NCBI GenBank assembly: GCA_039930045.1
Contig: JBDSQB010000010.1
Location: 204,175 to 268,174 of the forward strand
Direction of reading: 5' to 3'
Source: Chthoniobacterales bacterium
GTDB taxonomy: Bacteria > Verrucomicrobiota > Verrucomicrobiia > Chthoniobacterales > DASVRZ01
DNA length: 64,000 bases
Below the pieces are notes generated by a model. It was given only the letters and a program-made list of their open reading frames with translations, was not told the DNA's origin and searched no databases. The position numbers and the translations under genes were made by a program. Each line of letters opens with the position of its first letter. Positions within the stretch are counted from its first letter, which is position 1. This document shows, in pieces, positions 1 to 8,128 of this stretch.

Positions 1-47
1 TCCGCTACGTCGAGTTTTTTAGTGGGCTTTTGCATACCAGAAAACAT
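1..47 (-). CDS. Possible 5' end of a minus-strand gene leaving the window
   Basis: The reverse strand is open from an ATG at 47 (or a second ATG at 35) to the window edge and reads MFSGMQKPTKKLDVA. Fifteen codons are too few to identify a product. It would be divergent from the gene starting at 107. The lysine-rich start looks plausible but is not proof of a gene. Confidence 0.2.
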   Translation of the reverse strand, partial: MFSGMQKPTKKLDVA

Positions 48-106
48 GGCGTTAAACGCACGGACATCACGCTGCCGTGGAAACGGTGGAAACGGCAGGG
101 GTCCCT

Positions 107-604
107 ATGAGCACTCCCATCGACAAATCCGCCGATCTGTCTGGCCGCATTTTAGCCAGGCTGAAGGCGCGATTTTATGCAGGACATGAGAAGCTGTATT
201 TTCAGGAGCTGGCCATGCTTCAGCAGGCGATCTCGTTGCCCGCTGTCTATCTGGAGGAGCGCAGTCGCGCTTTGCCAGCCGAGAGGCTGGAGTCCATTTT
301 GCTGACGGTGATTCGCGGCATTGTGGAGAATGCCCGCCCGGAGGATATCCACAGTTTTGGACGTTACTTTTTGAAGGCCGTGCAGACGCACATGAACCAT
401 CACGGCGAGGAATATCTGGCTGCCGCGAAGTCGTATCAAAGCGTGCTGGAACATCAGCTCATGGGCTTGCGCAAGGTCGGTGAAAAGGCGTTGCCCTTCG
501 ACAAGACCTGCGAGTCGCTCGCCGCTGCTCACAAGGTGCTGACGCAAAAATCTGGCCGGAAAAAGGCGCAGAAAACGCAATGCCACCAGATCGATCTTCT
601 ATGA
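107..604 (+). CDS. Hypothetical protein, accessory region
   Basis: A 165-residue, mainly helical, soluble-looking protein with no signal peptide or membrane segment. I chose the ATG at 107 (MSTPIDKS) rather than the in-frame ATG at 77, because the extra ten residues are low-complexity and sit on a GGAAACGG duplication. The C-terminus is basic (SGRKKAQK). I do not recognise the family. It lies just upstream of a small sigma-like HTH gene and a phage-type adenine methylase, so it probably belongs to the same accessory or prophage-derived segment. An antisense frame over the same bases is judged a shadow. Confidence 0.6.
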   Translation: MSTPIDKSADLSGRILARLKARFYAGHEKLYFQELAMLQQAISLPAVYLEERSRALPAERLESILLTVIRGIVENARPEDIHSFGRYFLKAVQTHMNHHGEEYLAAAKSYQSVLEHQLMGLRKVGEKALPFDKTCESLAAAHKVLTQKSGRKKAQKTQCHQIDLL

Positions 605-637
605 ATCCGGTATGCGTCGAGTCGCAACATTCATGGG

Positions 638-829
638 TTGAAGAGTCGGGATCGAATCGATCTGGGCTTGGCCATTTCGCGCACGCGGCTGCAACGAAAT
701 CAGACGGTGTCGTTGGCCAGCCTCGCGGCCTATTGCGACTGCCATCCCTCGACCATTCTGCGCATCGAGCGCCGTGCCCTGGCGAAGGTCAGAAAAGCAA
801 TGGAAGCCGAGTGGCGTGCCATGCTTTGA
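638..829 (+). CDS. Small sigma-70 region 4-like HTH DNA-binding protein
   Basis: A 63-residue protein. Its second half (SLASLAAYCDCHPSTILRIE, then RRALAKVRKAM) matches the helix-turn-helix of sigma-70 region 4, where a recognition helix is followed by the typical ERRALAKVR tail. There is no region 2, so it is not a full sigma factor. The start is a TTG at 638; the frame is closed by a stop at 602, so only a few alternative starts exist. The stop at 827-829 is two bases from the ATG of the adenine methylase, which indicates translational coupling. Proteins of this size usually serve as regulators in phages and integrated elements; that role is inferred. Confidence 0.55.
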   Translation: MKSRDRIDLGLAISRTRLQRNQTVSLASLAAYCDCHPSTILRIERRALAKVRKAMEAEWRAML

Positions 830-831
830 GG

Positions 832-1599
832 ATGAAACGCATTTTACCCGTTCTCCGCTGGCCCGGTGGCAAAAGCCGCCACCTCAAAACGCTCCTGCCC
901 ATGATCCTGCCGCACGAGACCTATGTGGAGGTGTTTGCCGGTGGCCTCGCTGTTCTCCTGGCTAAAGAGAAGTCGAGCCGCGAGGTGATCAATGACACGA
1001 ATGAGGATCTGGTGTGTTTCTACCGCAACGCCCGTTTCCATCTGCCTGCGCTCCTGGATGAGCTGGATGGATTGAATGCCAGGGCGGAGTTTGATCGCGC
1101 TCGCGACTCGTTGCCTGCCACGGAGATCCAGCGTGCGGCCCGGTGGTTTCTCCTGAATGCGATGTCCTGGGGTGGCAAAGGGGAAAATTTCGGCCTCGGG
1201 AGCGCTGCTGTGTCGCGCCAGGGGAAGCTGGATCGGATCAAGGCTCTCAGCGCCCGTCTCGACCGGGTTGTCGTGGAAAAGCTCGACTATCGGAAATGCC
1301 TCAAGGCCTACGACCGGGTGAACACGTTTTTCTTTATCGATCCGCCGTATTTGAACTGCGATCCGGGCGCGTATGAAGGCTGGAACGTGGAGCAGATGCA
1401 GGAGCTGGCAGCGGCGATTCTGAAGCTGAAGGGCCAGTGGGTATTGACGGTCGATGACAGCCCGGAGAACCGGGAGATCTTCACGGAGCACGAGCTGCTG
1501 GGCACGGTGATCCGCAACCAGCTCAACAACTGCCGCAAGGGAGAGGTGAAGGAAATGCGCGAGCTGATCATTCGTCCGCTTCGGAGGCCGGAAGCATGA
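832..1599 (+). CDS. DNA adenine methylase, D12 class (Dam-like)
   Basis: A 255-residue N6-adenine DNA methyltransferase that transfers a methyl group from S-adenosylmethionine to adenine in duplex DNA. The N-terminus has the D12-class signature RWPGGKSRHL (residues 9-18). FAGG at 35-38 is the SAM-binding motif, and the catalytic DPPY motif is at residues 170-173. I chose the ATG at 832 because a longer in-frame opening from 580 has no family similarity before it. The gene is coupled to the HTH gene ending at 829. No partner restriction enzyme is adjacent, so it may be an orphan or phage-type methylase. The target sequence cannot be read from the protein. Confidence 0.85.
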   Translation: MKRILPVLRWPGGKSRHLKTLLPMILPHETYVEVFAGGLAVLLAKEKSSREVINDTNEDLVCFYRNARFHLPALLDELDGLNARAEFDRARDSLPATEIQRAARWFLLNAMSWGGKGENFGLGSAAVSRQGKLDRIKALSARLDRVVVEKLDYRKCLKAYDRVNTFFFIDPPYLNCDPGAYEGWNVEQMQELAAAILKLKGQWVLTVDDSPENREIFTEHELLGTVIRNQLNNCRKGEVKEMRELIIRPLRRPEA

Positions 1600-1771
1600 C
1601 GCCGTCTGCACCACGTTTGATGAGCAGCCGTCTCGCCGCGCCGATGACCATGACGCGCTCCTTGCCATCACCAGGCACGCTGGCTATGTGTGGACGCAGA
1701 TCGATGACCTGCCCTTTAATGTTTACCTTTTTAGACAGACCGATGCTCGCCAGCCACTCGGCTGCGGTCAT
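1568..1771 (-). CDS. Hypothetical small protein, convergent with the methylase
   Basis: A 67-residue minus-strand frame starting MTAAEWLASIG and ending PASEADE, overlapping the last 32 bases of the methylase gene tail to tail. Composition is protein-like, with balanced charge and no low complexity. I do not recognise a family. It could also be chance, since it is short and the overlap is unusual. Confidence 0.35.
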   Translation of the reverse strand: MTAAEWLASIGLSKKVNIKGQVIDLRPHIASVPGDGKERVMVIGAARRLLIKRGADGVMLPASEADE

Positions 1772-2173
1772 GCGGGCGTTCTGCCAACTCAGGTCATGTC
1801 AGTGCGGATCATCGCAGAAAAAAGGGTGTGCAGGCGCGATTCTGCATGGCTGCAAGCGGCTTGCAAGAACTCTGAGCCACAGCCGCGATTCGTTCTCATA
1901 CCTATTTCATTTGGCCGTTTCTGGCCTTTTTTGTCTCAAACCGGCGATTCGCGATTCTGTCCTTCGTAAGTCACTGATATTCGGCTTGTTCCGGGCTATT
2001 CCGGCCTGCTTCGGCGATTCTTAAATCCCTCTGCGGGGAACAGTCAGGAGAGTCTTTTCGCGTGAGTGATCATTAAAAACCTTTTTAAGCCTTGTTTTTG
2101 GGTTCAACGCGCCAATAGACTTCGCTCCCGTCCATCATTCACCCGCAACCACCACCTCAAAATCCACATCACT
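1772..2173. other. Intergenic region, no gene recognised
   Basis: About 400 bases without a convincing gene. It is AT-richer than its flanks and contains five copies of GCGATTC between 1836 and 2020, listed separately. It has several C/T-rich stretches and TTCCGG-type words near 1990-2005. The plus-strand frames through it have poor protein composition. Confidence 0.5.
1836..2020 (+). repeat. Five direct copies of GCGATTC (iteron-like)
   Basis: The heptamer GCGATTC occurs at 1836, 1885, 1944, 1951 and 2014, all in the same orientation. The two central copies are back to back. The other spacings (49, 59 and 63 bases) are not a fixed multiple of a helical turn. Five copies of one heptamer in 185 bases are far more than chance. 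They may be binding sites for a protein of the accessory element, such as a replication initiator, integrase or the small HTH protein; this is inference. Confidence 0.5.
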
Positions 2174-2890
2174 ATGAACGACCGAGAAACCGCCCGTTAC
2201 GACATGTTTGGCCGCGTGACCACCTTTGGCACCGACAACTCCGCCGACTTTGCCCCCGGCAGCAACGCCCTGGGCCATTTCGCCAACCTCACCCGCATCA
2301 TCGCCGAACTCGACCTCGCCAAAGCCGGGCAACTCGGCGGCGGAGTCACCGCCAAATCCGTCCTCATCGACGCCCTGCGGCTCGACGTGCAAAACATCCG
2401 CCGCACCGCCGTCGCCATGGATCAGGATGCACCCGGCCTCGCCGACCAATTTCCCGCCGTGGCCTCGCCCTCCCAGGCCGACCTCATCACCACCGCCGAC
2501 GCCTACCTCGCCCTGCTCGCGCCCGCGCCGAACGACACCCCCGCGCAACTCGCCGCCAAGACCGCCCTCGCCGCCCGCTTCATCGCCAACGAACTCCCCG
2601 CCGACTTCGTGCAAGACCTCGTGGACGACCGCAAAGCCATCGACGGAGCGAAAGACGACGTCGAGAGCGTGGACAACGACGGAGTGGAAAACACCAGCGC
2701 CGTGGGTCGCCTCATCAAAGCGGGCATGAAAGAGGTCAACTACCTCGACGCCATCATGCACAACAAATACAGCCGCAACGCCGACAAACTCCGCGCCTGG
2801 CTAAGCGCCAGTCACATCGAACGCACCGCACGGAAGAAAAAAGAAGACATCGGAAATCCCACGGGCGGCACCGGCACTCCCAATAGCTAA
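2174..2890 (+). CDS. Conserved hypothetical protein typical of Verrucomicrobiota
   Basis: A 238-residue soluble protein starting MNDRETARYDMFGRV. The end shows the pattern YSRNADKLRAWLSASHIER followed by a basic, Gly/Thr-rich tail. From memory this matches a family present in many verrucomicrobial genomes, often in several copies and without known function; I cannot confirm that here. It has no signal peptide and no membrane segment. I chose the ATG at 2174 rather than 2066 because the upstream residues are basic and compositionally unlike the rest. Its strong GC bias contrasts with the AT-richer genes that follow. Confidence 0.65.
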   Translation: MNDRETARYDMFGRVTTFGTDNSADFAPGSNALGHFANLTRIIAELDLAKAGQLGGGVTAKSVLIDALRLDVQNIRRTAVAMDQDAPGLADQFPAVASPSQADLITTADAYLALLAPAPNDTPAQLAAKTALAARFIANELPADFVQDLVDDRKAIDGAKDDVESVDNDGVENTSAVGRLIKAGMKEVNYLDAIMHNKYSRNADKLRAWLSASHIERTARKKKEDIGNPTGGTGTPNS

Positions 2891-2946
2891 GGGTTTCCCA
2901 CTGATCTACCCAAGCGGAAAGTAATCTCTCCCACTTACCCACCATT

Positions 2947-3339
2947 ATGCCGATTGATTTCAGTAACATCCCAATCGGTAGTAAGTGGGATCGGCCAACT
3001 CTGGCAAAATTGTGGGGATACAAAACTTTCAATGCCATCGCCCGAGGTGTAATTACACCGGCGAAGCAGAACGTCATCATTCTGTATGTAACCATCGTGA
3101 AGCAGGAAGGATCAGTGCAATATGCCGACCAGTTAGATGGAAAAAAACTATTTTGGGAAGGCGAGGACAAAAACGGCAGCGACGACAGAATCAAGAACGC
3201 GGCAGCAAACGGAGACAGAATTCACCTTTTTCACCGTGAGCGACATCACTCGCCATTCGAATATATGGGAACAATGAACTTGGTTTTCTGTGAGAACGTT
3301 ACAGGTAAGCCCAGTAAATTTGAGTTTCGTTTACACTGA
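2947..3339 (+). CDS. DUF3427-like domain protein, first gene of a defence-type operon
   Basis: A 130-residue single-domain protein. It reads WDRPTLAKLWGY (14-25), AIARGVITPAK (30-40), KLFWEGEDKNGSDDRI (67-82) and IHLFHRERHHSPFEYMG (92-108). This pattern resembles the domain found at the C-terminus of DUF3427 helicase-type restriction proteins and in stand-alone proteins of restriction islands. By analogy with SRA-like folds it might read modified or foreign DNA, but that is speculation. The stop is 27 bases before the next gene and the three genes 2947-4779 run in one direction, so they look like an operon. Base composition is clearly AT-richer than the housekeeping genes, consistent with horizontal transfer. 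Confidence 0.6.
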   Translation: MPIDFSNIPIGSKWDRPTLAKLWGYKTFNAIARGVITPAKQNVIILYVTIVKQEGSVQYADQLDGKKLFWEGEDKNGSDDRIKNAAANGDRIHLFHRERHHSPFEYMGTMNLVFCENVTGKPSKFEFRLH

Positions 3340-3366
3340 TAGGTTCGCATCTAGCACGCTGGCTCC

Positions 3367-3828
3367 ATGAATTCGCGAGATAAGAATCTCTTAATCATTT
3401 GGGAGCAGAAAAAAATTCCTATTGTTTACCGCCAAGGCGGTGCCAAACCATTGCTGATCCGCCTGCCTTTTGCCCGTGACAATCGTGCTTGGTTAAAAGA
3501 AAGACCTCGTCAAAAGGAGCCGCAATTTTTGGAGAACTACAAGTGCTGGGAAATACCGAAAAGTCGTTTCGAGGAAATCGTAGAAAAATCGATTCTCCGC
3601 TACAAACAAGTTTATGTCATTCAACCTTATAGAAAGCACGAGGTTTGTGCGCCAAGTTGTATGAATGCTTCTGGTTTCGAATGCGAATGCTCGTGTTTGG
3701 GAGCTAACCATGGTCGAGGCAATCAAGGTAACTGGTTTGAAATAGCCGAGACTTTATCCGTCAGGTGGAGTGAGCGAGAATACGCATGCAGGCTAATTAC
3801 CCAAAAAAGCGACAGTATGATTCAATAA
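3367..3828 (+). CDS. Cys-rich conserved hypothetical protein of the same operon
   Basis: A 153-residue protein with a compact metal-site-like cluster at residues 94-115: CAPSC, then ECECSC, then GANHG. That gives Cys94, Cys98, Cys106, Cys108, Cys110 and His115. The N-terminal part has a GGAKPLLIRLPFARDNRAWL stretch and a conserved-looking KCWEIPKSRF. I recall similar proteins in integrative elements of many phyla, without known function. It is not a standard zinc finger. It lies 27 bases after the DUF3427-like gene and 21 bases before the Shedu-like nuclease, so it probably works with them. Confidence 0.6.
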   Translation: MNSRDKNLLIIWEQKKIPIVYRQGGAKPLLIRLPFARDNRAWLKERPRQKEPQFLENYKCWEIPKSRFEEIVEKSILRYKQVYVIQPYRKHEVCAPSCMNASGFECECSCLGANHGRGNQGNWFEIAETLSVRWSEREYACRLITQKSDSMIQ

Positions 3829-3849
3829 CTCTACAACTGTGTCTCGAGT

Positions 3850-4779
3850 ATGCCTCGCCATGATTACAACTGGTTAGAGAGAATCAATCGTTATCAACCA
3901 ACTGACCCCGCTCTCCCGTGGTCATGGCTTTCAAAAACCGATATAGTTCAAAGAATCCTTTTCCAATGGAACTCACTGTTGCAAACACCAAACATTGCAG
4001 AGCGTAAACTTACTGAATTTCTAAAACGAAATGCCGGGCTCTTCTTTCATTTTGAAAATCAATATCCCTTTGCTCTAAGCGAAATACGTTTGGGATCGCA
4101 TTATGCGATTGATTTTGCGCTAGCTGATGATCGTTGGAGTGATGGCACGTTGTGGTCACTAATTGAAATTGAGTTACCTTCAACTCCACCTTTCAATAAA
4201 GATGGCTCAAAGAGCATGCGCCTGAGCCGTTCGCTAGATCAAATCGAACACTGGCGGAGTTGGCTAAAAAGATGTTGCCGAATGACCCAGGAACTTTTCC
4301 CATGCAGTAGATGGAATCCTGAGGCATACCTCAAATTTATTATTGTCATCGGGACTCGAGAAAATTCATCGAAGTGGATAGAGAGACGAAATGAGCTTTC
4401 CAAGGACTACGGTGTTGAAATCAGGAGCTTCGACTGGTTAACCGATTGTTTGAAACGCGGAACCAAATGGATAAATGATACAAGTCATTGGGAAGCTCAT
4501 GACCAGGGCCCATTTGCACCTATGGTTGCAAACGCTTTAGGAAATCCATTGTATGAGGCTTTTACACATGTTGAATGGAAAGAAACCATTCGGGAGTGCT
4601 GCAACTGTGATCGTATCATGGATCTGAATGCTGACGTGATTTTGAAGCATCGGCACAATAGTGAGGTCTTCAAAGAATTTTCAGAATTTTGCCAAGCTAG
4701 GACCGAGGAATATGCCATTTGGAAATACAAACTAATATCCAATTCACTCTCTGATTCGAAGGATCTCCGTTTTTTATAA
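3850..4779 (+). CDS. Shedu-like (DUF4263) nuclease
   Basis: A 309-residue protein. Residues 50-140 fit the Shedu/DUF4263 nuclease core: AERKLTEFLKRNAGLFF (50-66), HYAIDFAL with Asp88, LIEIELP with Glu106 and Glu108, then a Gly-Ser segment and a LDQIEHWRSWLK helix with Gln131. Shedu proteins are single-component anti-phage nucleases of the PD-(D/E)XK superfamily. In the usual D-ExK pattern a Lys would stand where Glu108 is, so either this subfamily uses ExE or the alignment is imperfect. The C-terminal half (150-309) is not recognised; it has a Cys pair at about 256-258 (RECCNCDRIMD). It is the last gene of a three-gene operon. A DUF4263-related nuclease is likely; the exact activity is inferred. 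Confidence 0.65.
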   Translation: MPRHDYNWLERINRYQPTDPALPWSWLSKTDIVQRILFQWNSLLQTPNIAERKLTEFLKRNAGLFFHFENQYPFALSEIRLGSHYAIDFALADDRWSDGTLWSLIEIELPSTPPFNKDGSKSMRLSRSLDQIEHWRSWLKRCCRMTQELFPCSRWNPEAYLKFIIVIGTRENSSKWIERRNELSKDYGVEIRSFDWLTDCLKRGTKWINDTSHWEAHDQGPFAPMVANALGNPLYEAFTHVEWKETIRECCNCDRIMDLNADVILKHRHNSEVFKEFSEFCQARTEEYAIWKYKLISNSLSDSKDLRFL

Positions 4780-4892
4780 TCGCTCTTAACATGTGCAACT
4801 AGCGGTACGCCAAATGAGCGAGCAGGAACACTTGGGACACATGGTTTCCGAGCCTACTGGAGAATCTGCGGATGACCAGACAGGGTGCGGTC

Positions 4893-6152
4893 TTATTCCA
4901 GGACCATGTGATAGTGCAGGTCGGCACGAGCTTTGCGATCTCCGCGGCAGCGTGGTCGGCTGCAATACCAACGCCGCCAACCTGGGCCGCTCTTCAAGGA
5001 CATCGTCGCGCTGCATCTGGGACATGTCGGTGTGAAGATGTTCACCTCTTCCTCAAATTGTTTAACCCACTGATTGACCCGAAAGAGGTTTTCGCCGGGT
5101 CGAGTGACCTCACCGATCAACCGCAGCAACTGAGTGCGGTTGATCATCTCGATATCTTTACCTTCGGCAAACTGGAGTCCGGGCTTGGTGTATTCGCCAC
5201 TCGTAATGAAAATGGCGCGGGTGCTGCGTTCTGCCATGTGGACTCCGAAGAGTTCGCGGATTTCTTCCACTTTCACGGGGTCCTTTCGATGTTTGCATTG
5301 CACTAACACTTTCTCGCTTCCGCGCGTGAGAGTGACATCGATTCCGCCATCCGGACCCAGGCCACCGCTGATGGCAACCTCCCATCCCTGACGCTGATAG
5401 ATGAGCCCAATGAGGAGTTCGAATTGTTCCCAAGTTAGGGAATCCAGCGTGAGTTTCTCGTTGAAGGAACTCGGCTCCGGAACATTCGCGGGTAACGGTG
5501 GCGGTAATGATGAGACTTTTTGCTGCCGGCCCCACTTTCCTTTTGTGAACGCCGCGACGAGAAGCGCTGCGATAGCTAGGAATATGGCGATTCCGTTGGG
5601 TCTGGAGCTACTGGGTTGATTCGAAGTGCGAACAGGTGTTGTCGCATAGGGAGTCGAGAGAGGTGTTTTCCTCTCTTCTGGAGCGGCGTGAGAGGGATAG
5701 CTAGTAACAGAACGAGCTAATGGGGCTGGTGTGGTTGAAGGAAGAGCGGAGTTAGGCTTGTATCTGCCACCGGAGAACCGAAGCACACGAGGAAACTTCG
5801 GATCGTAAACGGCCATCGCGTAGTCGGACCGCATCCAGTTCCTGACTTTCATGCCAGCGAAACCGATCTGCTTCCATGTTTCTCCTGTGCTTTGGATTTT
5901 CAGGAGTTGCTGGATGTCCGTTTCGGTGAGCGGATCGAGCTTGGCATAGGTAATGGAAGCAATTTTTTCGTTCGTAAATTGCACGTCGATGATCCACGAG
6001 TCCCTCCGGTATTGAGCCGAGTGCGTGGAATGATCTTCCGTGAGCGGCTGACCTGAAGTGGCGACTAGCTCGTTCATGGATTGTCCTAGCTGAATGGCTT
6101 GCGAGGCCGAAATACTCGCCAAGAGCGCGCAAGTTAGAAGGACGTGTTTCAA
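4893..6152 (-). CDS. Membrane-anchored Mrr-type endonuclease with C4 zinc finger
   Basis: A 419-residue protein with an unusual build. Residues 1-19 look like a signal peptide (MKHVLLTCALLASISASQA). A periplasmic-type domain follows to about 135, then a Pro/Ser/Thr-rich linker. One membrane segment lies at 187-203. The Mrr-like catalytic domain is at about 238-350, with GPDGGIDV (Asp272) and QCK (Gln285, Lys287) as the PD-(D/E)XK-type site. A topoisomerase-type C4 zinc finger closes the protein (Cys377, Cys380, Cys397, Cys402). The nuclease would face the cytoplasm. Mrr-family enzymes cut methylated or otherwise modified DNA. It is convergent with the Shedu-like gene and lies just downstream of the PLD-type gene on the same strand. 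Confidence 0.8.
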   Translation of the reverse strand: MKHVLLTCALLASISASQAIQLGQSMNELVATSGQPLTEDHSTHSAQYRRDSWIIDVQFTNEKIASITYAKLDPLTETDIQQLLKIQSTGETWKQIGFAGMKVRNWMRSDYAMAVYDPKFPRVLRFSGGRYKPNSALPSTTPAPLARSVTSYPSHAAPEERKTPLSTPYATTPVRTSNQPSSSRPNGIAIFLAIAALLVAAFTKGKWGRQQKVSSLPPPLPANVPEPSSFNEKLTLDSLTWEQFELLIGLIYQRQGWEVAISGGLGPDGGIDVTLTRGSEKVLVQCKHRKDPVKVEEIRELFGVHMAERSTRAIFITSGEYTKPGLQFAEGKDIEMINRTQLLRLIGEVTRPGENLFRVNQWVKQFEEEVNIFTPTCPRCSATMSLKSGPGWRRWYCSRPRCRGDRKARADLHYHMVLE

Positions 6153-6158
6153 AAGAAA

Positions 6159-6878
6159 CTAAGGTTGAAGCGTTTCCGGCCAGACAAAGTAGGGGCCGAA
6201 CTTCTGACTCATCTTAAATTCGCCGCCAGCTTGTTTGCCTTTTTCGGTGAGGTAGTCTTTGCCTTCGCGTTTCTCGAGGATGCCGCCATTGGTGAGTTTT
6301 TCGAGTAGTTCACCGGTTTTAAGCCCGAGCTTCGCAGCCAGTTTGGAGGTGCTGAGTTTGTTGTTTTTGTCGCCCGCATCTGCCGAGGGCGAGGCGCTGG
6401 AGGTGGAAGGTTCATCTTCCTGATCGCGGCTGACTTTTTCCAAGGTGATGCGGATCTCGTCGCTAATGCGGATGATGCGCTGGGCTTCGTCGTAAGCATC
6501 GCGGTAGAGTTCGCTGTCCTCGCTGCGCTTGATGAGAATGCCCATCTCGTTGTTATTGATCTGGCTGAATTCGTAAAGGTTGAGGCTGGTGACGATGCAA
6601 AGCTCTTCGTTGAGGTAGCACTTGGCGTGGAGGTTTTTGCAGAAGCTGGTGCGGACGAAGGAGAGTTCGCGCAGCCAGTTGATTTCCTCGGGCTGGAGTT
6701 CGTTTTTGCCATAAACGATGCGGATGTCGATCTTGAGGCGGTTTTTGTCTTCCAGCAGCTCCTTCATCCGGTCGTTGAGCTTGAGGAACGGGCTGATGAG
6801 GATGAGGCGGTCGCGGGCGTTCTTGACCAGTTCCTCCAGAAAGTAGTTCGTCGCGCTGGTGTTGAGGAATTTGGCCAT
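6159..6878 (-). CDS. Phospholipase D-like domain protein (putative nuclease)
   Basis: A 239-residue protein. The N-terminal half is a PLD-like domain (residues 9-140) with one HxK motif, LHAKCYL, giving His84 and Lys86, followed by the SLNLYEFSQINNNEMG segment typical of small PLD-type nucleases. Such single-motif proteins usually dimerise to build the active site. The C-terminal half has a Ser-rich linker and a winged-helix-like tail (TSKLAAKLGLKTGELLEKL). I chose the ATG at 6878; the longer frame to 7031 runs through the antisense of a Vsr remnant. It lies six bases before the Mrr-type gene on the same strand and so may be cotranscribed. Its start overlaps a duplicated segment also present at 7860-8089. 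Confidence 0.75.
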   Translation of the reverse strand: MAKFLNTSATNYFLEELVKNARDRLILISPFLKLNDRMKELLEDKNRLKIDIRIVYGKNELQPEEINWLRELSFVRTSFCKNLHAKCYLNEELCIVTSLNLYEFSQINNNEMGILIKRSEDSELYRDAYDEAQRIIRISDEIRITLEKVSRDQEDEPSTSSASPSADAGDKNNKLSTSKLAAKLGLKTGELLEKLTNGGILEKREGKDYLTEKGKQAGGEFKMSQKFGPYFVWPETLQP

Positions 6879-7080
6879 AAGCTCATTAAAGCAGACTGAG
6901 TGCCAAGACGAAGCATTCGCTTTGCCGAAGACGAATGCGGAGTTTTGGGAGAAGAAGCTGGGGAAGAATCGGGAGCGGGATTTGTTAGTCACGGCCACGT
7001 TGCAGGAGAAAGGCTGGCGAGTGTTGCGCATCTGGGAATGCGATCTAGCTAAAAAGAATTGGGAGACGGTGTTGGCCCGG
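6853..7080. repeat. Direct repeat, copy 1 (gene start plus Vsr remnant)
   Basis: This segment is clearly homologous to 7860-8089. Both begin GCGCTGGTG, contain the reverse complement of a gene start (TTTGGCCATA) and continue into a Vsr-like 3' part. Identity is high but not perfect, with many third-base changes and one single-base length difference near the junction, so the duplication is old. The two copies bracket a PEP-CTERM gene. Confidence 0.8.
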
Positions 7081-7113
7081 TTCAGGAGCGCTCTGGACGT
7101 TCTTGAGCTGTGA
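6895..7113 (+). pseudogene. Vsr-like endonuclease remnant, copy 1 (C-terminal part)
   Basis: The plus strand encodes LPKTNAEFWEKKLGKNRERD, then LQEKGWRVLRIWECDL, which match the C-terminal part of Vsr (very short patch repair) endonucleases: the LPKTN-EFW block and the GWRVLRIWEC block. A full Vsr protein has about 60-80 further residues with the catalytic Asp and a zinc site. Those are absent, because the bases upstream are the start of the minus-strand PLD-type gene. I see it as a truncated gene. A short functional DUF559/Vsr-like protein is possible but unlikely without the catalytic residues. Confidence 0.7.
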
Positions 7114-7885: not shown

Positions 7886-8089
7886 AGCCCTGTTTCAAGC
7901 AAAGCGAGTGCCAGACCGAAACATTCGCCGACCTCGAAGATGAATGCGGAGTTTTGGGAGAAGAAACTGGGAAAAAACAAGCAACGCGATGCGCTGGTGA
8001 CGGCGACGTTGCAGGCGAAAGGCTGGCAGGTGTTGCGAATCTGGGAGTGCGATCTGGCGCAAAAAAACTGGCCAGACGTCGCGGCTCGG
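7860..8089. repeat. Direct repeat, copy 2 (gene start plus Vsr remnant)
   Basis: Second copy of the segment at 6853-7080. It holds the start of the minus-strand PEP-CTERM gene and the 3' part of a Vsr-like gene on the plus strand. Relative to copy 1 there is one extra base just before the shared AATGCGGAG, which breaks the upstream reading frame of the Vsr part. Confidence 0.8.
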
Positions 8090-8128
8090 GTGAAGCGAGC
8101 CACAGGCTCGACGCTACACGGTTTTTAG
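7940..8128 (+). pseudogene. Vsr-like endonuclease remnant, copy 2
   Basis: A 62-codon frame starting MNAEFWEKKLGKN, with LQAKGWQVLRIWECDL, the same C-terminal Vsr blocks as the remnant at 6895-7113. The upstream part is missing and a one-base difference disrupts the frame before the ATG. The tail after ARVKRAT diverges from copy 1. It is probably non-functional. Confidence 0.65.

Follow-up and report, generated by a model that had tools for sequence, protein, structure and literature searches.

In modification-dependent restriction enzymes the SRA domain serves as the reader; SRA-type (type IV) enzymes include SauUSI, ScoMcrA, TagI, MspJI, AbaSI and PvuRts1I. Types I and II of Shedu (SduA) are described as single proteins in the excerpts of PMC12409362, and in those of PMC12409362 and PMC12137116 type I has an N-terminal regulatory domain preceding the nuclease. 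In this study, we analysed a stretch of 64,000 nucleotides (the window) from a Chthoniobacterales bacterium (Verrucomicrobiota; assembly GCA_039930045.1, contig JBDSQB010000010.1, positions 204,175 to 268,174 of the forward strand), in which a run of three open reading frames (ORFs) joins a separate predicted SRA reader, a Cys5His-cluster protein and a Shedu-domain protein, a combination so far found only in the window's genome. Our favoured reading, tentative and held at somewhat less than an even chance, is that the three genes form a split cassette for modification-dependent restriction, in which the SRA reader, the Cys5His protein and the short Shedu-domain protein work together. What was computed is the order and composition of the genes, their families and predicted folds, and the neighbourhoods of their relatives; from these we infer the joint function. 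The features are as follows (window positions; aa, amino acids).

2947-3339, plus strand: ORF1, 130 aa, stand-alone DUF3427-like protein, a predicted SRA-fold reader of modified cytosine
3367-3828, plus strand: ORF2, 153 aa, Cys5His-cluster protein of a defence-associated family, nameless in the libraries searched
3646-3711, plus strand: codons of the Cys5His cluster within ORF2, residues 94-115, C-x3-C-x7-C-x-C-S-C-x-G-x2-H, placed from the ORF2 start at 3367 and the invariant alignment columns
3850-4779, plus strand: ORF3, 309 aa, short Shedu-domain (SduA_C/DUF4263) protein of an E-x-E branch, with no fused sensor domain
4111-4173, plus strand: putative active-site codons of ORF3, D88 to E108, E-x-E replacing E-x-K, placed from alignments

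Each of the three ORFs is intact and open from start to stop, their start codons match the starts of full-length relatives, and the intergenic gaps are 27 and 21 bases, as an earlier preliminary description of the locus had it. That description also called the genes richer in AT than their flanks, and the trio proved to be the most GC-poor 1.8 kb of the window, with a GC (guanine plus cytosine) content of 43.5% (45.3%, 43.5% and 42.3% in ORF1, ORF2 and ORF3) against a window mean of 58.1%; none of 622 window stretches (1833 bases each, in 100-base steps) was as poor. Genes of at least 390 bases called by a codon model (n = 41) had a mean GC of 59.2% and a minimum of 53.7%; the model was trained on the window itself, favours typical genes and failed to call ORF2 and ORF3. 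Neither consensus promoters (3 promoter-like sites, 2.7 expected) nor terminators (2 terminator-like sites, 4.4 expected) exceeded chance in a scan of positions 1900-5200. Since the three genes have nearly equal GC, joint acquisition is the simplest reading, and the cassette, itself real, probably arrived as a single piece; alternatively, the genes may derive from separate AT-rich sources. It has the look of portable modules brought together recently, not of an old, conserved system.

The identity of ORF1, earlier said to resemble DUF3427, holds and turned out stronger than claimed. ORF1 itself has no direct match in Pfam, DUF3427 (PF11907) included; two of the eight members of its family alignment match DUF3427 (best 5.9e-7), the predicted structure has the clean SRA fold of readers in modification-dependent restriction, and the top Foldseek match of the model is SauUSI, the DUF3427 enzyme. 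ORF1 is comparable to SauUSI through the DUF3427 relationship and to the SRA-type enzymes in its predicted reader fold, but differs in being a separate 130-aa reader with neither helicase nor PLD (phospholipase D) domain and in having as its neighbouring nuclease-family gene a Shedu gene. The latter shares the strand of the reader gene and begins 510 bases after it, a pairing not found elsewhere. A relative of ORF1 in a same-phylum genome is an SRA-HNH_2 fusion (L116 5415-6440, minus strand), in which a homologous reader is joined to a nuclease domain; it supports a sensor-plus-nuclease logic and is unlike the trio in being one polypeptide with an HNH nuclease. No ORF1 relatives were found in plasmid or phage records, the SRA alignment gave none confirmed in viral contigs, and the ORF1 alignment had chance-level matches or none among PDB sequences.

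ORF3, previously called Shedu-like, matches Pfam SduA_C (DUF4263) over residues 51-197 with 36.4 bits, above the curated cut-off of 27, and PADLOC SduA at 9e-18, with no match in NCBIfam; the call stands and is stronger than claimed, although with a Glu in place of the catalytic Lys. Multiple sequence alignment showed that D88, E106, E108 and Q131 are invariant in the seven close members (ORF3 included), and that E-x-E replaces E-x-K, with the Asp kept, in all seven as well as in six of six distant relatives. E-x-K is present in the Agrobacterium Shedu and in solved SduA (8ti8). Because ORF3 lacks the catalytic Lys of canonical Shedu and of the PD-(D/E)xK site, we do not claim canonical Shedu membership; judged by its sequence, ORF3 carries a Shedu domain and belongs to a variant branch. 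The substitution also bears on a rival explanation, an improbable one, in which ORF3 is a catalytically dead Shedu relative with a DNA-binding or regulatory role and the cassette blocks or reports without cutting. The uniform E-x-E and the absence of an invariant Lys further along fit this explanation, as does the K557A mutation, which abolishes V. cholerae Shedu activity in the excerpts of PMC12137116. On the other hand, all 13 aligned proteins retain D88, E106 and E108, unlike a decayed site. BamHI is an active enzyme with E-x-E.

ORF3 differs from Shedu in further respects, being 309 aa long and third in a gene run rather than a single gene. It has no sensor domain before the nuclease as in a single-protein type I Shedu; its SduA_C domain starts at residue 51 of 309, leaving little space for the type I N-terminal regulatory domain. 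Some short members of the E-x-E branch also stand in gene rows with other genes: in G189 the Shedu gene overlaps a membrane-protein-like ORF, and in a Leptospira plasmid it lies 24 bases before such an ORF, whereas no partner is evident beside it in G038 and G103. In G211 (L089 4973-10144), 5 bases separate a type III Mod-Res pair from the short E-x-E Shedu gene behind it, possibly a three-gene type III variant; Res retains a PD..EYK motif of its own (by eye), and its match to EcoP15I is at 9.9e-5. The ORF3 family alignment had no match among sequences of solved structures, where the Agrobacterium Shedu does match solved SduA. ORF3 relatives were absent from phages, and neither the Shedu alignment nor the P0002 scan gave any confirmed match in viral contigs.

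For ORF2, the preliminary description had noted a conserved-looking Cys/His cluster, and in a 28-member alignment free of pattern-based selection the six residues C94, C98, C106, C108, C110 and H115 are indeed invariant (C-x3-C-x7-C-x-C-S-C-x-G-x2-H-G). Across 90 distinct rows the cluster is retained wherever covered, with a single replacement of the His, a conservation that is partly by construction as the genome and viral loci were collected by peptide patterns from the cluster (CECSC..). The cluster likely binds metal. ORF2 has no match in Pfam, PADLOC or NCBIfam and weakly matches PHROG 6842, of unassigned function, over the Cys cluster (6e-5). Its AlphaFold2 model is of good quality (predicted local distance difference test, 87) with no clear fold: Foldseek gave no PDB match at E up to 0.001, MutS domain I, XPB N-domain and Alba-like DNA-binding folds were considered, and the alignment had chance-level matches or none among PDB sequences. 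Relatives occur at 54 loci in the species-genome collection and in 19 viral contigs, 21 plasmids (16 of these records inspected) and seven Streptomyces phages (two inspected). In two of the phages, JustBecause and Satis (L117, L118), the Cys5His protein is encoded near helicase and DnaQ-like exonuclease genes. The window's genome holds a second copy, broken across two reading frames (L086 6120-6589; G000:C16:276119-276567), with no Shedu or SRA relative within the 12.5 kb read.

ORF2 relatives adjoin Shedu genes in two other lineages. In Agrobacterium sp. T29, genes for Shedu, a 1620-aa PDC-M54A ATPase and a Cys5His protein lie on one strand, the last two 39 bases apart, and in Mesorhizobium LNHC252B00 the Cys5His gene and an interrupted Shedu gene lie convergent within about 150 bases. 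The Agrobacterium run resembles the trio in having Shedu and Cys5His genes on one strand, and is unlike it in the ATPase and in its Shedu, an E-x-K protein of 485 aa whose N-terminal region is long; no SRA gene was found there. Elsewhere, the Cys5His gene is fused to an Endonuclease VII domain (a Streptomyces plasmid), adjoins a DpnII-MboI restriction endonuclease gene, lies about 10 bases downstream of a NERD gene, or adjoins an HNH gene (L052, above the cut-off, and L067, just below it). These loci favour a second rival, in which Shedu and Cys5His function as a pair, with the Cys protein as a portable nuclease adaptor or controller, and the SRA protein is independent or a later addition; consistent with this, no SRA relatives were found in the Cys loci searched. 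We nevertheless consider it rather unlikely, as the Mesorhizobium Shedu gene is convergent and so not in one operon, the ATPase separates the two genes in Agrobacterium, the highly diverse Cys5His neighbours include many non-nucleases, and the SRA gene heads the same gene run in the window.

In favour of the genes belonging together, only five of 50 Cys-bearing genomes have any SduA_C gene, and in one of those five it adjoins the Cys gene (of the 54 genome loci, all but L015, L053, L055 and L057 were covered). A model of the E-x-E branch (alignment A1) found no Shedu near 73 Cys loci, a negative valid for that branch only; A1 missed the E-x-K Shedu of L105 and the L005 gene, both found with broader queries. 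Defence Pfam names were enriched in proximal over control ORFs of the Cys5His loci (one-sided Fisher, p = 0.007), a guide only, as the names were chosen after inspection, each was given for one unspecified member, 39 of 39 proximal ORFs were scanned against 39 of 61 controls, and viral loci were in the proximal set only. This test used ORFs of at least 150 aa, with L001, L015, L056, L062, L063 and L073-L076 excluded beforehand as self, redundant or weak; the controls outside it were L017, L033-L035, L037-L040, L051 and 13 after L053. The Cys5His family, whose members often adjoin defence genes, is a defence-associated and apparently portable module of bacterial chromosomes, plasmids and Streptomyces phages, to which the libraries searched assign no function.

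Several Cys5His loci carry further features. A run of genes for 223 aa, 402 aa (HTH and IrrE) and about 108 aa before the Cys5His gene recurs in L033, L034, L035, L037-L040, L048, L055, L065 and L066; it mostly adjoins AbiEi/AbiEii-like genes (by eye) and seems to belong to a mobile element. In G331 (L087 3629-6053) a possible further defence cluster precedes the Cys5His gene, with one HhH-glycosylase-like ORF and another that resembles a sugar-kinase/nucleoside-deoxyribosyltransferase fusion (both by eye), and in G693 (L131 8032-12729) antirestriction-like and ABC-three-component-like ORFs (by eye) lie near it.

The weight against joint work comes from co-occurrence. Among 387 same-phylum genomes, an even draw from a larger group, the Shedu branch was found in four, the Cys protein in three and the SRA protein in two, and no genome but the window's own has two or more of the three. 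When 147 relatives were searched with ORF3, two further Shedu, both distant, were the only finds. The Cys protein has a match in five of 384 same-class genomes (a set overlapping the 387), and in the three of these inspected, G331, G693 and G735 (G593 being outside), no Shedu or SRA gene lies nearby. The longest contigs of six Shedu, seven SRA and 27 Cys relatives share no length. The trio as a conserved operon was dropped as a candidate, being not found elsewhere, and since there is no second example it is not an established system. In the open-licence PubMed Central literature no paper was found that brings Shedu and the SRA domain together, and no multi-gene Shedu appears in the titles or abstract openings of its Shedu papers among the matches listed. 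The preliminary description had proposed a sensor, adaptor and nuclease arrangement and had named rare co-occurrence of homologues, or the lack of a DUF4263 match for ORF3, as observations that would refute it. ORF3 does match DUF4263, and the rarity of the trio counts against the arrangement in part; it keeps in its favour the SRA-HNH fusion and the recurrence of Cys5His beside Shedu in two other lineages, within a family that mostly stands beside other genes.

Just upstream of the trio is what seems to be a Mu-like prophage region (G000:C10:182514-204000 and window 1-1771; L114, L115), with late genes leftward, a transposase-like ORF at 194899-196707 and early genes rightward up to a D12 methylase gene; its transposase-like, portal-like and endolysin-like ORFs were judged by eye. 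The last gene of this region is:

580-1599: D12 methylase gene, assigned by Pfam match

A GC-rich ORF of 274 aa with no Pfam match lies between it and the trio. Downstream, at 4893-7031 on the minus strand, an Mrr-like nuclease ORF (PF04471, 1e-25) stands beside a PLD-like ORF that weakly resembles DISARM DrmC. On the plus strand, at 6900-7113 and 7940-8128, are two short, nearly duplicate fragments about 1 kb apart that look like Vsr-type endonucleases (by eye). The chief rival, unlikely in our estimate, is that the Shedu, SRA and Cys5His genes are chance neighbours in a defence island, captured separately beside the Mu-like prophage and doing no joint work. The adjoining Mrr-like and PLD-like genes, the prophage upstream, the diverse neighbours of ORF2 relatives and the lack of a second genome with even two of the three genes all fit it; the single strand, short gaps and common low GC of the trio, the Cys5His genes beside Shedu elsewhere and the SRA-nuclease fusion do not.

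Under the favoured split-cassette reading, modified cytosine (5-methylcytosine, 5-hydroxymethylcytosine or the like) in phage or plasmid DNA entering the cell would be flipped out and read by the SRA protein. The Cys5His protein would bind to DNA or connect the reader with the nuclease, and the Shedu protein, without the fused sensor of type I, would then cut the DNA. A more specific form of it, possible but doubtful, is that a sensorless E-x-E Shedu nuclease is directed in trans by a free base reader and a portable Cys5His adaptor, the adaptor being common to many unrelated defence nucleases (Shedu, DpnII-type, NERD, HNH and Endonuclease VII). If true, a sensorless Shedu branch that relies on readers in other proteins would account for the re-aiming of one nuclease core, and would tie Shedu to modification-dependent restriction. 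The role of the Cys5His protein, once shown, would have consequences for many defence islands together.
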